A stretch of 64,000 bases of DNA from Gemmatimonadota bacterium (lineage in GTDB: Bacteria; Gemmatimonadota; Gemmatimonadetes; Gemmatimonadales; Gemmatimonadaceae): positions 420,702 to 484,701 of the forward strand of contig JAZKBK010000006.1 in the NCBI GenBank assembly GCA_040388625.1, given 5' to 3'. The notes under the pieces were generated by a model that was given only the letters and a program-made list of their open reading frames with translations, did not search any database and had not been told where the DNA came from. Below are positions 50,034 to 55,101 of the stretch, piece by piece. The first letter of the stretch is position 1. Each line of letters starts with the position of its first letter. A program made the position numbers and the translations under genes.

Positions 50034-50504
50034 TCACTCGAGCTCGATCAGTTCGACGGCGACTCGACCATCGGTAATCATCATGATTGCGACACTGGGA
50101 GCGAGGTCGAATCTTCGGGCACCTGCGGCGCCCGGATTGACCGCCACGCGGCCGGCAAGGTCGAGGATCAGTTGTTTGTGCGTATGGCCATATACTATGA
50201 TATCCGCGTTCGGGTAGGCTCTGAGCAGTTGCTCCGGTTTGGGCCGGCCAAGCTCGTTGCCATGACTCATGTGAAGGCGGAGACTCTCGAACGTTTGTTC
50301 GAAAGACACTGGAAGATTCGGATCGCCAACGGGATCGCAATTGCCGGCGACCGCGTGGACCGGGGCGATGGTCCTCAGTTCATGGAGGATGTCGTCACCG
50401 CACACATCGCCGGCGTGAAGGATCAGGTCGACCCCGGTGAAGGCCGAATGAACTGCCGGCCTCAGAAGGCCGTGCGTATCGGAGATGAGCCCCAGCCTGA
50501 TCAC
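50034..50504 (-). CDS. YfcE/MJ0936-type metallophosphoesterase
   Basis: This 156-residue calcineurin-like phosphoesterase has the metal site in order: LISDTHG (Asp, His), HAGDVCG (Asp), AGNCD (Asn), SHGN (His) and YGHTHKQ (two His). The length fits the small YfcE-like group, which cleaves phosphodiester model substrates in vitro. The GTG at 50504 gives the standard start; the longer frame to 50558 has an unusual N-terminus. It is divergent from the small-protein cassette that starts at 50619. Confidence 0.93.
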   Translation of the reverse strand: MIRLGLISDTHGLLRPAVHSAFTGVDLILHAGDVCGDDILHELRTIAPVHAVAGNCDPVGDPNLPVSFEQTFESLRLHMSHGNELGRPKPEQLLRAYPNADIIVYGHTHKQLILDLAGRVAVNPGAAGARRFDLAPSVAIMMITDGRVAVELIELE

Positions 50505-50618
50505 GGTCGCACTCTGTGGCGGTACATCGACGAAAGCTAGGCGGAAGTGTACGCCCACGAGAAGGGCTGCCGGCGGGGCAGTCGTCTCATCGAGCCCCGT
50601 GCATGTCTAAATTGGGGC

Positions 50619-50864
50619 ATGTCAATGCTGAGACTGGCCCTCGCGCTCGGCGCCCGTTCGCTGCGTCGCCCGACGCTCGCGGTCGATCTCGCGCGGGTGA
50701 GTTGGCGCTTCCGGAACCGGCACTGGTACCGCCGGCCGCCATTTCTACCCATCCCGGACCGGGAGTATGTACGCTGGCGTATGGATACAGCGTACGGATC
50801 ACCAGATTTCCTCCCACCCGCCGACGACGTGGAGCGATACGTCCGGTGGGCGTCACGAGATTGA
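50619..50864 (+). CDS. Small arginine/aromatic-rich protein at the head of the cassette
   Basis: This 81-residue protein is basic in its first half (LGARSLRRPTLAVDLARV, SWRFRNRHWYRRPPFLPIP) and acidic in its second (REYVRWRMDTAYGS, DDVERYVRWASRD). The REYVRWRM-x-TAYG segment looks like a conserved core, which I associate with small proteins beside NoeA-like methyltransferases (unverified). No signal or membrane segment is clear. GGGGC precedes the ATG. It is followed by a 94-base gap before the 46-residue micro-protein. Confidence 0.65.
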   Translation: MSMLRLALALGARSLRRPTLAVDLARVSWRFRNRHWYRRPPFLPIPDREYVRWRMDTAYGSPDFLPPADDVERYVRWASRD

Positions 50865-50958
50865 ATGGGTACGGTAACAACGTTGTGATCCCGGCGGGAT
50901 CATTGTACGTTATCTTCCCGCTCGGACCTCGAAACTCCACCACGAATCGGGAGTTCTG

Positions 50959-51099
50959 ATGTATATCGATCCCGCTGCAGGCAGTCTCGTGCTCCAGGTA
51001 GTAATCGCTGGCGTGATCTCGGCGCTGGCCTTCATGCGTCGTGCGCGCAGAGCAACCAAGGCGTTCTTCGTCTCGCTCTTCAACAGGCACCACCGATAG
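50959..51099 (+). CDS. MYIDP-type small membrane protein, 46 residues
   Basis: A very short frame begins MYIDPAAGSLVLQVVIAGVI, continues SALAFM and ends with a basic tail (RRARRATKAFFVSLF). MYIDP-x-x-GSL-x-x-Q followed by one membrane helix is a recurring micro-protein pattern I recall next to methyltransferase or sulfatase-like genes (recognition, not searched). GGAGTTCTG lies just upstream. The stop is one base before the TTG of the methyltransferase, so translation is coupled. It is well below usual gene-calling lengths. Confidence 0.7.
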   Translation: MYIDPAAGSLVLQVVIAGVISALAFMRRARRATKAFFVSLFNRHHR

Positions 51100-51100
51100 C

Positions 51101-52489
51101 TTGACGCGACTCGGAGCGTCGTTCCGAGACCCGAGTGGATTTGTTTTCGACCGGAACGGTGTGCTTTACCGGCAGGTCAACCGGGTCTTTGCAGATGAAT
51201 TCGATGCATGCTCGTCATCCGGCCTGTACGACGAGCTCATGGCCGATCGCCTGCTGGTACCGCATGCATCGGCTGATGTAGCGCTGGCGCTGACGACGGA
51301 TGCGTACGCCGTGCTCGAGCCGGAGCGCCTCCCATTCATATCGTATCCCTACGAATGGTGCTTCGGGCAGCTGAAGGACGCCGCACTGTTGACGCTCGCC
51401 GTCCAGTCGCGCGCGCTCGAGCGGGGCTTCGTTCTGCGAGACGCCAGTGCATACAACGTCCAGTTCGTCGATGGGCGGCCGGTGTTCATGGACACGCTGT
51501 CGTTCGAGCGTTATCGCGACGGGGAACCGTGGATCGCATACAAGCAATTCTGCCAGCACTTTCTGGTGCCGCTCATGCTCATGGCGCGCCGCGACATTCG
51601 CTTCGGCCTGCTCTTGCGCGAATATCTCGATGGGATCCCGCTCGATTTCGGGAGCGAGATGCTGCCGAGGAGAAGTTGGGCGGACATACGGGCGTTGCTG
51701 CACATCCACATGCACGCCCGCGCGCAGCGAAAGTATTCGGAAACGAAAGTCTCGTCGGCTGTCGGCACGCGCCGGATGACAAAGCAGGCACTCGTCGCGC
51801 TCAGCGAAAACCTGAGCGAGGCGATCGAGCGGCTCACCTGGCAGCCGGATGGCACGCAGTGGGCGAACTATGTCCAGGACACGAACTACAGTGACGCAGC
51901 GGTCGCGAGCAAGCAGGACACCATCCGTCGCTACCTTCGCGAATCGAATCCTGCGATAGTTTGGGACATCGGCGCCAACACCGGAGTATACTCGCGCATC
52001 GCGAGAGAGATTGCGCCGCTGGTAATATCGTTCGATATCGACCCCGCTGCCGTCGAGCGAAACTACCGAACCGTGCGACTGCAGCGGGAGACGGGGATTC
52101 TGCCGCTTCTCATGGACCTCACGAATCCATCGCCCGCCCTGGGCTGGGCGCACGCGGAGCGGATGTCGCTGGAGGAGCGAGGTCCCGCCGACGTCGTGAT
52201 GGCGCTCGCTCTCGTGCATCATCTGGCGATCGGCAACAACGTGCCACTGGGTCACGTCGCGGCATTCATGGCGCAACTGGGACACAATCTCATCATCGAG
52301 TTCGTTGACAAGGAGGACTCACAGGTCGTGCGTCTGCTTCGCAATCGCGCCGACATCTTCGACGATTACACCCGGGACGGCTTCGAGAGGGCGTTCGCGG
52401 CGCACTTCGATATCGACGAATGCGAGCAGGTGGGCGACGCGCGCAGATGGTTGTACTCGATGAGGGGTCGAAGAGAGCTCCTGACATGA
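51101..52489 (+). CDS. NoeA-like class I SAM-dependent methyltransferase
   Basis: From a TTG at 51101 this 462-residue protein has an N-terminal region with ISYPYEWCFGQLKDAALLTL, VLRDASAYNVQFVDGRPVF and IDTL-like FMDTLSFERY, a pattern shared with NoeA-type proteins. DASAYNVQF-x-DG-x-P resembles the catalytic loop of aminoglycoside-kinase-like folds, but without the His-Gly-Asp. The C-terminal half is a Rossmann methyltransferase: VWDIGANTGVYSRIA is the SAM-binding motif and ISFDIDPAAVERNYR the acidic loop. The substrate is unknown. The TTG lies one base after the micro-protein stop; the ATG at 51041 would overlap it by 59 bases. The stop overlaps the next ATG by four bases. Confidence 0.85.
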   Translation: MTRLGASFRDPSGFVFDRNGVLYRQVNRVFADEFDACSSSGLYDELMADRLLVPHASADVALALTTDAYAVLEPERLPFISYPYEWCFGQLKDAALLTLAVQSRALERGFVLRDASAYNVQFVDGRPVFMDTLSFERYRDGEPWIAYKQFCQHFLVPLMLMARRDIRFGLLLREYLDGIPLDFGSEMLPRRSWADIRALLHIHMHARAQRKYSETKVSSAVGTRRMTKQALVALSENLSEAIERLTWQPDGTQWANYVQDTNYSDAAVASKQDTIRRYLRESNPAIVWDIGANTGVYSRIAREIAPLVISFDIDPAAVERNYRTVRLQRETGILPLLMDLTNPSPALGWAHAERMSLEERGPADVVMALALVHHLAIGNNVPLGHVAAFMAQLGHNLIIEFVDKEDSQVVRLLRNRADIFDDYTRDGFERAFAAHFDIDECEQVGDARRWLYSMRGRRELLT

Positions 52490-54108
52490 GGTGGTTGCGC
52501 ACCACATATCCGGCGATGTTCGCGATCTTCCCGATTATCGGAGTCGCGGCCAACAATCCCGGGTATTACAGATTGATCGACGTTGTCGTGCTGTGCATGG
52601 TTGCGATAGCAGCTGTCGCGGTGCTGTACGGCATCACATACGCGATCATTCGCATCCTGACGCGCGTGGCGTCAGGCCCGGACGTAGCTGCGCTGGTAAC
52701 TCTGGTCGCGGTCGCGCTGTTCTATTTCTACAAGCCCCTCCCGCTCGGCGCCATCAAGGGCTGGCCACTTGCACATCCCGTGTACGCTCTGGTGGTCGTC
52801 GTCGCTATCGCCGCCGCGTATTCCTTCGCGAAGAAGCGTGGGATAGCGCGGAAGCTTCCGTCGATGGGTACCGTCAGTCGCTTTCTTGCGCTCACGGGCG
52901 GCATTCTGGTTTGCGTCTCCGTCTGGCGATTGGCGTACGACGAGATCAGCGACATGATTGCGCTACACCGCAGCGACATGGTCCGGGACTTCGAGCGCCC
53001 CGTTCCGATGCGTGTCGCCGACGCGCGGTCAGATGGAGGATCGACGAGTGCGGCTCGCGCACCGAAGCGTGACATCTACATCATTGTTCTCGATGAATAC
53101 GCCGCGACCGACGTATATCGCGAGCGGTATGGCTACGATAACGGCCCGTTCGAGGATAGCCTGCGCGCACTGGGATTTCAGATTCCGCGCGATCTGCGCA
53201 GCAACTACGCGAATACGCTTCTGTCGATCACGTCGTTTCTGAACTTCGCGCATGTGCAGCCGATCAGCCAGGTCATGAGTCCCGGTTCGAAGGACTTCAC
53301 GCCAGTAGCATACCTGATGGAGCACAACAGGGCCGAGCGATTCCTCAAATCGCAGGGATACAAGTTCGTGTTCTTTCCGTCAGCATGGTACTCGCCGACA
53401 TTGACGAACAGCGATGCCGACGAGCAGTACGATCCGTACAAGCACTTCAGCCTCGCGCGCGCCATACATCGTTCGTGGCTCGCGCAATACTTCGCCGACA
53501 TGACGATGTTCAGCAAGTTCATGCCACGCATGGCGAGCGAGAACAAGGTGGACGCCGACCATGAAATGCTGGACGTCGCGGGCGTTCCGTCGATCGCGGC
53601 AGACCCACGTCCTACCTTTACCTTCGTGCACGTGCTGATGCCGCATCTGGGCTTCAAGGTCGATTCCGCGTGCGCGCCGCTGGTCAGGTCTCCTGGAACT
53701 ACCGGGCTTTCTGGGGAGCTCAAGTGTCTCAACAGACAGACGCTCAAGATGGTGCATGCACTGATTGCCCGGTCGTCGGTGCAGCCGATCATCATTCTCC
53801 AGGGCGATCACGGGTCACAGTCGCTGAAGCAGTTCGTAAGCTACACCGCGCTTCCAAACACGGACCAGGCCAGAGAACGGTTCAGACCTTTCGGCGCATA
53901 CTACCTCCCGGGCAGCCCTGCTGGCGTGATTCCGGATTCGACCAGCATCGTGAACGTGTTGCGTTACGTATTCGATTACTACTTCAACACCGACCTCAAG
54001 CCGCTGCCGAACACGATGTACTATTCCCACTGGATGTATCCGTACCGAATGACGGAAGTGGACGCCAACTTCCACGTGGTCAGGCAGCAGCCAGCGCGTA
54101 GTAGGTAG
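52486..54108 (+). CDS. Membrane-bound sulfatase-like / alkaline phosphatase superfamily protein
   Basis: This 540-residue protein has an N-terminal half of about four to five membrane helices (LVTLVAVALFYFYKPL, VYALVVVVAIAAAY, VSRFLALTGGILVCVSVW), then a soluble domain. IYIIVLDEYAATDVYRERYG gives the metal-binding Asp, and LRSNYANTLLSITSFLN the candidate Ser/Thr nucleophile. FTFVHVLMPHLGF and ILQGDHGSQS supply further metal ligands. Such proteins are usually listed as sulfatase-like without known substrate; lipid or glycan headgroup transfer in the envelope is plausible (inference). The start overlaps the methyltransferase stop (ATGA). Confidence 0.85.
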   Translation: MRWLRTTYPAMFAIFPIIGVAANNPGYYRLIDVVVLCMVAIAAVAVLYGITYAIIRILTRVASGPDVAALVTLVAVALFYFYKPLPLGAIKGWPLAHPVYALVVVVAIAAAYSFAKKRGIARKLPSMGTVSRFLALTGGILVCVSVWRLAYDEISDMIALHRSDMVRDFERPVPMRVADARSDGGSTSAARAPKRDIYIIVLDEYAATDVYRERYGYDNGPFEDSLRALGFQIPRDLRSNYANTLLSITSFLNFAHVQPISQVMSPGSKDFTPVAYLMEHNRAERFLKSQGYKFVFFPSAWYSPTLTNSDADEQYDPYKHFSLARAIHRSWLAQYFADMTMFSKFMPRMASENKVDADHEMLDVAGVPSIAADPRPTFTFVHVLMPHLGFKVDSACAPLVRSPGTTGLSGELKCLNRQTLKMVHALIARSSVQPIIILQGDHGSQSLKQFVSYTALPNTDQARERFRPFGAYYLPGSPAGVIPDSTSIVNVLRYVFDYYFNTDLKPLPNTMYYSHWMYPYRMTEVDANFHVVRQQPARSR

Positions 54109-54117
54109 ATTTCACAT

Positions 54118-55101
54118 GTGACCGAGCATGGGGTGGAAGCGCCGAGGGACATCGAAAGTCGCGTCAAGGCGCGCGCGCGGCAGCTCGGCTTCGATCTCGT
54201 CGGAATCGCGACGCTGGGCGAAGTCGAAACTGCGGATCACTTCGACGAATGGATCGCCGCCCGTTACGCCGGCGAGATGGGATATCTGGAGCGCGGCGCC
54301 GAGAAGCGTCGCGACACGCGGAGGCCGTTCGAGGGAGTACGGAGCGCAGTCGTCGTCGCGATGAATTACGGCGGGACGCAGCCGCCCGGTCCCGTAGCGC
54401 GCTACGCGCGCGGCGACGATTACCACGATCTGATGATCGGCAGGCTGAACGAGCTGCACCGCTGGATCGAGGTTGAGACAGGTCGCCCTGTCCGCGGCAA
54501 GCCGTATGTCGATACTGGCCCGATACTCGAGCGCGATCTCGCGCGACGCGCTGGACTCGGCTGGTTCGGAAAGAACACAAATCTCATCAATCCGGAGATT
54601 GGCTCTTTCTTCTTTCTGGGCGAGCTGTTGCTGGATCTCGAGCTGCGTGCTGACGATCCATTCGAGATGGACCGTTGCGGGAGTTGCACGCGATGTCTCG
54701 ATGCGTGCCCGACCGACGCGTTCGTCGCGCCGCGGGTGCTGGACGCGACGAGATGTATTTCATATCAGACGATCGAGCAGAAGGGGCCGATTGCGGAGAC
54801 GCTACGCGAAGCGATCGGCGAGCACCTGTACGGGTGCGACGTGTGTCAGGAGGTGTGCCCGTGGAACGTGAAGTTCTCGAGGGATGCGACGGAGCCGTCG
54901 TTTGCGGCGCGTGAAGTCATCGCGGGTAAGGATGCGCAGACGTTGGCGACGGAAGTGCTCGCGATGGAGCAGGAGGAGTTCAGCGCGGCGTTTCGGAAGT
55001 CGCCGATGAAGCGTGCGAAACTCGCGGGTTTGCAGAGGAATGCGGCGGTGGTGCTTGAGAACGGGGACGGAGTGGGGACGGACTCCGCACGGGATTCATG
55101 A
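54118..55101 (+). CDS. queG: Epoxyqueuosine reductase
   Basis: This 327-residue enzyme performs the last step of queuosine tRNA modification, reducing epoxyqueuosine with a cobalamin cofactor and two [4Fe-4S] clusters. The clusters are seen in CGSCTRCLDACPTDAF with RCISYQTIEQ, and in GCDVCQEVCPWN. GLGWFGKNTNLINPE and YVDTGPILERDLA are family motifs. The GTG start lies nine bases after the upstream stop. The end of the protein (GDGVGTDSARDS) falls inside one arm of a 25-base inverted repeat, so the last few residues may have been altered by its insertion. A second, broken copy of the C-terminal part lies at 58167-58415. Confidence 0.95.
   Translation: MTEHGVEAPRDIESRVKARARQLGFDLVGIATLGEVETADHFDEWIAARYAGEMGYLERGAEKRRDTRRPFEGVRSAVVVAMNYGGTQPPGPVARYARGDDYHDLMIGRLNELHRWIEVETGRPVRGKPYVDTGPILERDLARRAGLGWFGKNTNLINPEIGSFFFLGELLLDLELRADDPFEMDRCGSCTRCLDACPTDAFVAPRVLDATRCISYQTIEQKGPIAETLREAIGEHLYGCDVCQEVCPWNVKFSRDATEPSFAAREVIAGKDAQTLATEVLAMEQEEFSAAFRKSPMKRAKLAGLQRNAAVVLENGDGVGTDSARDS

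Follow-up and report, generated by a model that had tools for sequence, protein, structure and literature searches.

The locus considered here raises the question of whether four consecutive genes on a contig assigned to the Gemmatimonadota (JAZKBK010000006.1; the window is the whole stretch of 64,000 nucleotides that was analysed) constitute one functional system and, if so, what chemistry such a system would perform. The original prediction had placed two small proteins, a methyltransferase with a kinase-like N-terminal region, and a membrane sulfatase in a single uncharacterised cassette.

Gene Layout and Insertion Site

The coordinates, the one-base gap, and the four-base overlap are all as they had been described. 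On the plus strand, an 81-residue frame (orf81) occupies positions 50619–50864, a 46-residue frame starting with MYIDPAAGS positions 50959–51099, a 462-residue frame with a TTG start positions 51101–52489, and a 540-residue frame positions 52486–54108. The stop codon of the 46-residue gene ends at 51099, leaving one base before the TTG at 51101, while the last two genes, of the NoeA and NoeB types, share the bases ATGA at 52486–52489. Relative to the congener G021, orf81 carries 28 base differences, 24 of them at codon position 3, and the 46-residue frame carries three, all at codon position 3. Sequence conservation supports the assignment of all four frames as coding. The chromosomal flanks are a metallophosphoesterase gene on the left (50034–50558, minus strand, Pfam Metallophos_2) and, on the right and outside the cassette, a gene for a QueG-like iron–sulfur protein (54118–55101, plus strand, Pfam QueG_DUF1730 and Fer4_16).

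Homologues of orf81 are present in 129 of 150 genomes of the phylum, nearly all as a single copy, compared to 13 genomes for NoeA, and the QueG-like gene directly follows orf81 in nine of the ten relatives examined. The two genes also adjoin each other in genomes devoid of the cassette, and the metallophosphoesterase gene adjoins orf81 at two loci (L165 and L168), both without the cassette. In addition, orf81 and the QueG-like gene flank an unoccupied site in two congeners: G150 matches the window at 50034–50852 and 54154–55067, with 29 bases between the matches, and G151 at 50034–50852 and 54164–55055, with 52 bases between them. The phylum-wide presence, the adjacency to the QueG-like gene, and the empty sites rule out orf81 as a cassette member; it is a chromosomal gene at the left border of an insertion of ca. 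3.25 kb (50865–54117). The cassette is composed of three genes, not four, namely those of the microprotein, the NoeA-type protein, and the NoeB-type protein. The grouping originally put forward is thus retained for these three, which form a unit widespread in many phyla, and abandoned for the 81-residue gene. Horizontal acquisition of the cassette at this site is part of the explanation that we favor.

Gene Order and Co-occurrence

Eighty NoeA loci, spread over ca. 18 phylum-level groups, were compared for gene order. The order recurs well outside this strain: the microprotein gene immediately precedes NoeA in 67 of 77 loci, and a NoeB-like gene immediately follows it in 37 of 74. The NoeA unit is found across many phyla and also in an archaeon. 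About half of the NoeA loci lack an adjacent NoeB, and a strong, full-length NoeB-like gene is present elsewhere in 9 of the 13 such genomes tested.

Co-occurrence of the three cassette genes in the 150-genome sample of the phylum has Fisher p values of 4e-13 to 8e-17, or 1e-7 to 4e-9 when counted by genus. In the same sample, NoeA is also present in 11 of the 13 genomes with NoeB and in all 12 with a confident microprotein. This strict co-occurrence of the cassette members, even when unlinked, is a new observation. Since the order recurs in many phyla and the members co-occur across the 150 genomes, the gene order is well beyond chance.

NDP-sugar pyrophosphorylases and glycosyltransferases are over-represented among the neighbors of NoeA in other phyla, and in Anaerolineales a noeA-type gene is found beside topA, greA, and NDP-sugar genes. 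Neither glycan genes nor nod genes were seen adjoining the cassette in the window. Two other identities were considered and rejected: an anti-phage defence system, as none of the four proteins was matched by PADLOC, and a phage-borne cassette, as no NoeA match was found in 50,697 phage records.

The NoeA-Type Protein

The protein encoded at 51101–52489 is a true relative of NoeA, as had been suspected: 98% of its length aligns with NoeA of Sinorhizobium meliloti at 38% identity (E 6e-75), and it carries kinase-type catalytic residues. It comprises a kinase-like N-terminal domain (residues ~1–245) and a class I SAM methyltransferase domain (residues ~249–459). All of 61 sequences keep the kinase-type residues R24 (an Arg at the usual Lys position), D114, N119, and D131, along with the SAM-binding motif DxGxNxG. 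In the AlphaFold2 model (pLDDT 90.9), the order of strands and helices in the N-terminal domain fits a kinase C-lobe. The methyltransferase domain, which dominates the fold-match lists, matches NodS, a methylphosphate-capping enzyme, and WbdD at Z 16–19, with many other methyltransferases statistically close. A profile of the N-terminal domain gave nothing significant against the PDB and Pfam, the best Pfam hint being RIO1 in 3 of 24 members (E 0.15), and no NCBIfam family was above the cut-off for NoeA or the small proteins. The putative kinase identity is derived from the motif, the topology, and a published model (PMC9758233), which supports a protein-kinase fold for this domain.

The NoeB-Type Protein and Its Exchange

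The predicted multi-helix architecture and alkaline-phosphatase type of the protein encoded at 52486–54108 are borne out by the structural matches. Its model (pLDDT 83) consists of an N-terminal bundle of four to five transmembrane helices followed by an alkaline-phosphatase-superfamily domain (residues ~165–540), for which the best matches are EptC (Z 22.0) and YejM (Z 21.7), then sulfatases and LtaS, with many sulfatases within 2 Z units. The putative catalytic residues D203, T244, H382, H387, D441, and H442 are almost invariant in two sets of 19 and 35 sequences. T244, conserved in 19 of 19 and 34 of 35, begins a helix (residues 244–252) in the model. The arrangement is that of EptC, EptA, and LtaS, with T244 as the probable nucleophile and the Asp and His residues as metal ligands, the choice among the Thr and Ser residues being inferred, since the EptA-type spacing is two residues off relative to NoeB. 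Pfam Sulfatase matches 24 of the 35 NoeB-like members, but the sulfatase motif [CS]xPxR is found in none of the 35 (set A5), in one of the 19 (set A2), and not in the NoeB of the window, and an invariant Thr occupies the nucleophile position. A formylglycine-type sulfatase is therefore unlikely, and with it the sulfatase label originally given to this gene.

The NoeB gene is the changeable part of the cassette. Between two congeners, the identity is 100% for the microprotein, 95% for NoeA, and 49% for NoeB. In BLASTN, the window and G021 match at ~94% up to 52463, show essentially no DNA match through the NoeB gene, and match again at 87% from 53863. The mosaic segment (52463–53862, plus strand), exchanged relative to that congener, covers the N-terminal part and most of the catalytic domain of NoeB, and its boundary is sharp, an observation that is also new here. 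That NoeA and the microprotein stay constant while NoeB is swapped gives a lead to what varies, probably the group on the cell surface that hosts, phages, or competitors encounter.

The Microprotein

The 46-residue protein is predicted to be a single-pass membrane microprotein, with an extracytoplasmic-type N-terminus (YIDPAAGS), a hydrophobic segment at residues ~8–26, and a basic C-terminal tail. A comparison with the PDB gave no meaningful match, and a literature search for the motif found no paper. All 15 confident microprotein genes of the phylum sample are located directly 5′ of NoeA (11) or NoeB (4), none standing alone, and in S. meliloti a 71-residue microprotein with the N-terminus YLDPGTGS precedes noeA. 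These results suggest that the microprotein is a near-constant and largely overlooked third member of noeA units, which has to our knowledge not been proposed before.

Proposed Mechanism

The observed basis covers the members of the cassette and their order, their co-occurrence, the site of insertion, the domain architectures, and the conservation of catalytic residues; from it, we infer the enzymatic steps as follows. The cassette may be a horizontally acquired glycan-modifying unit, a tentative proposal that we consider to have somewhat less than an even chance of being correct. NoeA, as a soluble cytoplasmic protein, would phosphorylate and then O-methylate (or otherwise methylate) a sugar or lipid-linked glycan prior to export, in the manner of WbdD, and the modified product would then be carried across the membrane. 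On the outside, the Thr-nucleophile metalloenzyme domain of NoeB would transfer or remove a phosphate-linked group on the exported molecule, in the manner of EptC or LtaS. The microprotein, which would cross the membrane once with its N-terminus outside and its basic tail inside, could hold the two enzymes together or gate the substrate. NoeB, as the exchangeable part, would set the exact surface chemistry. A stronger version, which we regard as rather doubtful, makes the microprotein an indispensable link across the membrane between the cytoplasmic kinase-methyltransferase and the extracytoplasmic phosphotransferase. The three would then act in many phyla as a single membrane-spanning machine for glycan decoration, with NoeB as a specificity module exchanged by recombination and the other two proteins held fixed.

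Two other readings concern the role of NoeB. It could act by hydrolysis, as a phosphatase, phosphodiesterase, or sulfatase, and take off a group that NoeA or some other enzyme had added. The close sulfatase matches and the Pfam hits speak for this; the sulfatase form is at odds with the lack of [CS]xPxR in 35 of 35 and 18 of 19 sequences, phosphohydrolysis would be compatible with it, and we judge the reading as a whole unlikely. It is less probable still that NoeB is a sensor or regulator like YejM/PbgA, the lipopolysaccharide monitor, in which case NoeA would modify a lipid or protein used in signalling, and the microprotein would pass the signal on. YejM is nearly tied with EptC as the best match and has the same membrane bundle and periplasmic domain, but the near-invariance of the six putative catalytic residues is expected of an enzyme, and the fast divergence and swapping of NoeB suit substrate tailoring better.

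An equally improbable reading is that the substrate of NoeA is a protein or small metabolite unrelated to surface glycans (NoeA being, for instance, an atypical protein kinase and methyltransferase), the rhizobial Nod-factor link being a late co-option. The occurrence of the family in Legionella species, for which effector roles are suggested in PMC9758233, and the topA and greA neighbors in Anaerolineales are in line with it; the strict pairing with an outward-facing membrane enzyme and a membrane microprotein, the glycan genes among the neighbors, and the host-range phenotype of S. meliloti argue against it. Finally, one could regard the genes as chance neighbors without a common function, given that supporting pathway genes are absent at the cassette in the window and that NoeB is unlinked in some genomes. 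This reading is already refuted by the co-occurrence (p no higher than 4e-13 over the 150 genomes and no higher than 1e-7 when genera are counted) and by the order conserved in many phyla, and its probability is negligible.

Comparison with Known Systems

WbdD (PMC3482155), the chain terminator of the O9a O-antigen, unites kinase and class I methyltransferase domains in a single chain and installs a methylphosphate cap at the cytoplasmic membrane. NoeA resembles it in joining a kinase-like domain to such a methyltransferase and in its presumed action on a glycan at that membrane. In WbdD, however, the methyltransferase comes first and a coiled-coil tail follows, with no microprotein or NoeB-type membrane partner, whereas the NoeA of the window has the reverse domain order and ends after the methyltransferase domain. 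By analogy, NoeA would work like WbdD without being a member of that family. NoeB has in common with EptC, YejM (PbgA), and LtaS the membrane bundle, the extracytoplasmic domain, and the conserved D/T/D/H set of metal ligands and nucleophile, but the identity is only 10–14%, and the obligate association with NoeA and a microprotein is foreign to those families.

Closer relatives have been described in a 2022 study of the Legionella kinome (PMC9758233), which already presents the NoeA/NoeB neighborhood as conserved: the NoeA/Lani_1194 kinase family has conserved neighbors in 65% and 38% of 816 neighborhoods, and an alkaline-phosphatase fold is predicted for NoeB/Lani_1195. The neighborhood Lani_1193-1194-1195 resembles the window in its kinase-like and methyltransferase protein and in its conserved neighbors. 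In the sections of that study considered here, the small neighbor is not described as a membrane microprotein, and the insertion site, the NoeB exchange, and the phylum-level co-occurrence are not reported.

The nodL-noeA-noeB host-range nodulation operon of S. meliloti (Ardourel et al. 1995, referred to in PMC9758233, PMC9048898, and PMC4053727) shares with the window full-length NoeA homology, a NoeB-like next gene, and the upstream microprotein. Its NoeB is a distant member, matching the NoeB-like profile at E ~1e-19 in two pieces, and the operon stands in a nodulation context with nodL, whereas the window is non-rhizobial and apparently from the Gemmatimonadota. The papers considered here still term the action of noeA and noeB hypothetical. 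The description of the locus as an uncharacterised system is therefore accurate as to biochemical function and too strong as to novelty, the pair being known genetically in S. meliloti, conserved in the Legionella study, and not unique to the window; the cassette is a member of the known NoeA/NoeB unit, whose biochemistry is uncharacterised. As rhizobial host-range genes, noeA and noeB have been known since 1995. Their spread over many phyla and to an archaeon points to a general system of envelope modification as the source of the rhizobial version, and for the S. meliloti operon, the conserved microprotein encoded 5′ of noeA offers a concrete missing component that can be tested.

Insertion Site and Gene Content of the Cassette

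The four reading frames of the original prediction are present in the window sequence exactly as claimed, including their tight spacing: the stop codon of the 46-residue microprotein gene (50959..51099, +) ends one base before the TTG start of noeA (51101..52489, +), which in turn overlaps noeB (52486..54108, +) by four bases (ATGA, 52486-52489). The 81-residue protein (50619-50864, +), which had been counted with them, is ruled out as a member, since it is a core protein of the phylum, with homologues in 129 of 150 genomes, in single copy in nearly all, and a QueG-like gene as its usual neighbor. It matches no family in Pfam, NCBIfam or PADLOC. In cassette-free relatives, the QueG-like gene lies within a few bases after the 81-residue gene at 9 of the 10 loci examined, and the same gene (54118..55101) follows the cassette in the window. 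Both flanks are also matched in two congeners, where only 29 (G150) and 52 (G151) bases separate the matches. Because the flanks adjoin in these congeners and the two genes adjoin in the relatives, the cassette (50865-54117, about 3.25 kb) is an insertion of exactly the microprotein, NoeA, and NoeB. Palindromic stretches (ACAACGTTGT; GATCCCGGCGGGATC) at 50870-50915 (+), between the 81-residue gene and the microprotein, are possibly a promoter, an operator, or an insertion scar.

The source genome is 3.84 Mb and 99% complete. NoeA is found with a strong E-value in 13 of the same 150 phylum genomes, and any NoeA match in 19 of 179 genomes of the family, a patchy spread that either horizontal transfer or repeated loss could explain.

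Co-occurrence of the Three Genes

The NoeA profile picked up more than 578 relatives, of which the top 80 span about 18 phylum-level groups, as judged from record titles, plus one Methanoculleus. Among these 80, the microprotein lies directly upstream of NoeA at 67 of the 77 loci where there is space for it, and a NoeB-like gene directly downstream at 37 of 74, the order being thus kept well beyond this strain. Only five further microprotein matches occur across 833 kb, some adjoining a NoeB. Nine of 13 genomes lacking NoeB next to NoeA have a NoeB-like gene at another site, a strong match over the full length, and in G282 this distant gene adjoins a microprotein. In the 150 phylum genomes, NoeA and NoeB (13 each) share 11 genomes (p 4e-13; 1e-7 by genus), while NoeA and the microprotein (13 and 12) share 12 (p 8e-17; 4e-9 by genus), shared ancestry being only partly corrected in these values. 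All 15 confident microprotein genes there are directly 5' of NoeA (11) or NoeB (4).

In Anaerolineales (L052, L059, L060, L073, and L097), the microprotein-NoeA pair sits in a stable locus near NDP-sugar pyrophosphorylase and GreA-type genes, with topA upstream as read in L052, and so resembles a core unit of that lineage more than an accessory one.

NoeA

The encoded protein is 38% identical to S. meliloti NoeA (pSymA) over 98% of its length and, by this similarity, is a NoeA, bearing out the predicted NoeA-like methyltransferase. In the predicted model (pLDDT 90.9), structure matches identify residues 249-459 as a class I methyltransferase. The closest folds are NodS (Z 18.7), a methylphosphate-capping enzyme (17.8), and WbdD (16.4), with dozens of other methyltransferases within 2 Z units, so that the likeness to NodS or WbdD does not fix the substrate. 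The kinase-like N-terminal region is upheld in part: Arg24, Asp114, Asn119, and Asp131 are invariant in 61 homologues, together with the SAM-motif residues, and correspond to the kinase residues described for the Legionella Lani_1194/NoeA in PMC9758233, but profile searches of this domain against PDB and Pfam reached no kinase fold.

NoeB

The last gene encodes a membrane protein that resembles NoeB; its family profile matches the S. meliloti NoeB in two pieces (E about 1e-19). The predicted model (pLDDT 83) consists of a membrane bundle and a domain nearest to EptC (Z 22.0) and YejM (21.7), followed by sulfatases and LtaS, in line with the multi-helix alkaline-phosphatase-type protein originally proposed. 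The further claim of a sulfatase fares less well. Sulfatases are among the structural neighbors, but the family alignment lacks the sulfatase motif and conserves Asp203, Thr244, His382, His387, Asp441, and His442, which makes a phosphotransferase or phosphohydrolase with a Thr nucleophile the more likely assignment.

NoeB is also the variable part of the cassette. Between the window and the congener G021, identity is 100% for the microprotein, 95% for NoeA, and 49% for NoeB, with tree distances of 0.05 for NoeA and about 0.96 for NoeB. The DNA match of about 94% extends up to 52463, is lost across noeB, and resumes at 87% from 53863, within its 3' end. The loci L074 and L077 behave similarly (NoeA 82%, NoeB 45%), whereas the control pair L084/L103 has 94% and 89%. 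Genome G008 encodes five NoeB and three microproteins against a single NoeA. The simplest reading of these sequence comparisons is that NoeB was replaced through recombination. At one locus of G008 (L034:7941-11542), a microprotein precedes two tandem NoeB-like genes with no adjoining NoeA, the single NoeA lying elsewhere.

The Microprotein

The microprotein is a single-pass protein with its best plasmid match in Gemmatirosa kalamazoonensis, from which the source genome is probably one of the Gemmatimonadota. The conserved motif Y(L/I)DPG(T/S)GS immediately follows a signal-peptide-like stretch bearing an AxA-type site in 44 of 72 homologues, and it therefore probably forms the N-terminus of the mature protein, outside the cytoplasm. 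The window version has its start codon immediately ahead of the motif. In S. meliloti, a 71-residue homologue precedes noeA. In strain ml46 (pSymA, L120:4757-4972) it has a signal peptide, overlaps the noeA 5' end, and is labelled "hypothetical"; for strain 1021, the PLSDB table, itself incomplete, lists no such gene. An Anaerolineaceae homologue (L061:5483-5992) is extended at its C-terminus, on the side facing the cytoplasm, by a zinc-ribbon-like sequence (CPTCGTAV...CQYCG).

Proposed Mechanism and Relation to Known Systems

Beyond the observed architecture, conserved residues, linkage, and insertion, a mechanism can be envisaged in which NoeA would phosphorylate and methylate a glycan, or a lipid-linked glycan, inside the cell, NoeB would act on the product after export, and the microprotein would couple the two. 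Such a role is supported by the neighbors of NoeA loci elsewhere, which include NDP-sugar pyrophosphorylases (10 of 144) and glycosyltransferases, and by the S. meliloti noeA and noeB, host-range genes hypothesized to modify Nod factors (PMC9048898); a naturally truncated noeA goes with poor nodulation (PMC4053727). WbdD offers a precedent for a kinase and methyltransferase acting on a glycan (PMC3482155).

The suggestion of an uncharacterized system holds only as regards function. PMC9758233 already describes the NoeA family in 1201 species, conserved neighbors in 65% and 38% of 816 neighborhoods, and the alkaline-phosphatase fold of NoeB, and the cassette therefore belongs to this known but functionally unassigned unit, in which Lani_1193 is likely the microprotein. 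The following seem new relative to that description: an account of the microprotein, a co-occurrence that stays strict even where the genes are unlinked, a cleanly defined insertion site, and NoeB exchange.
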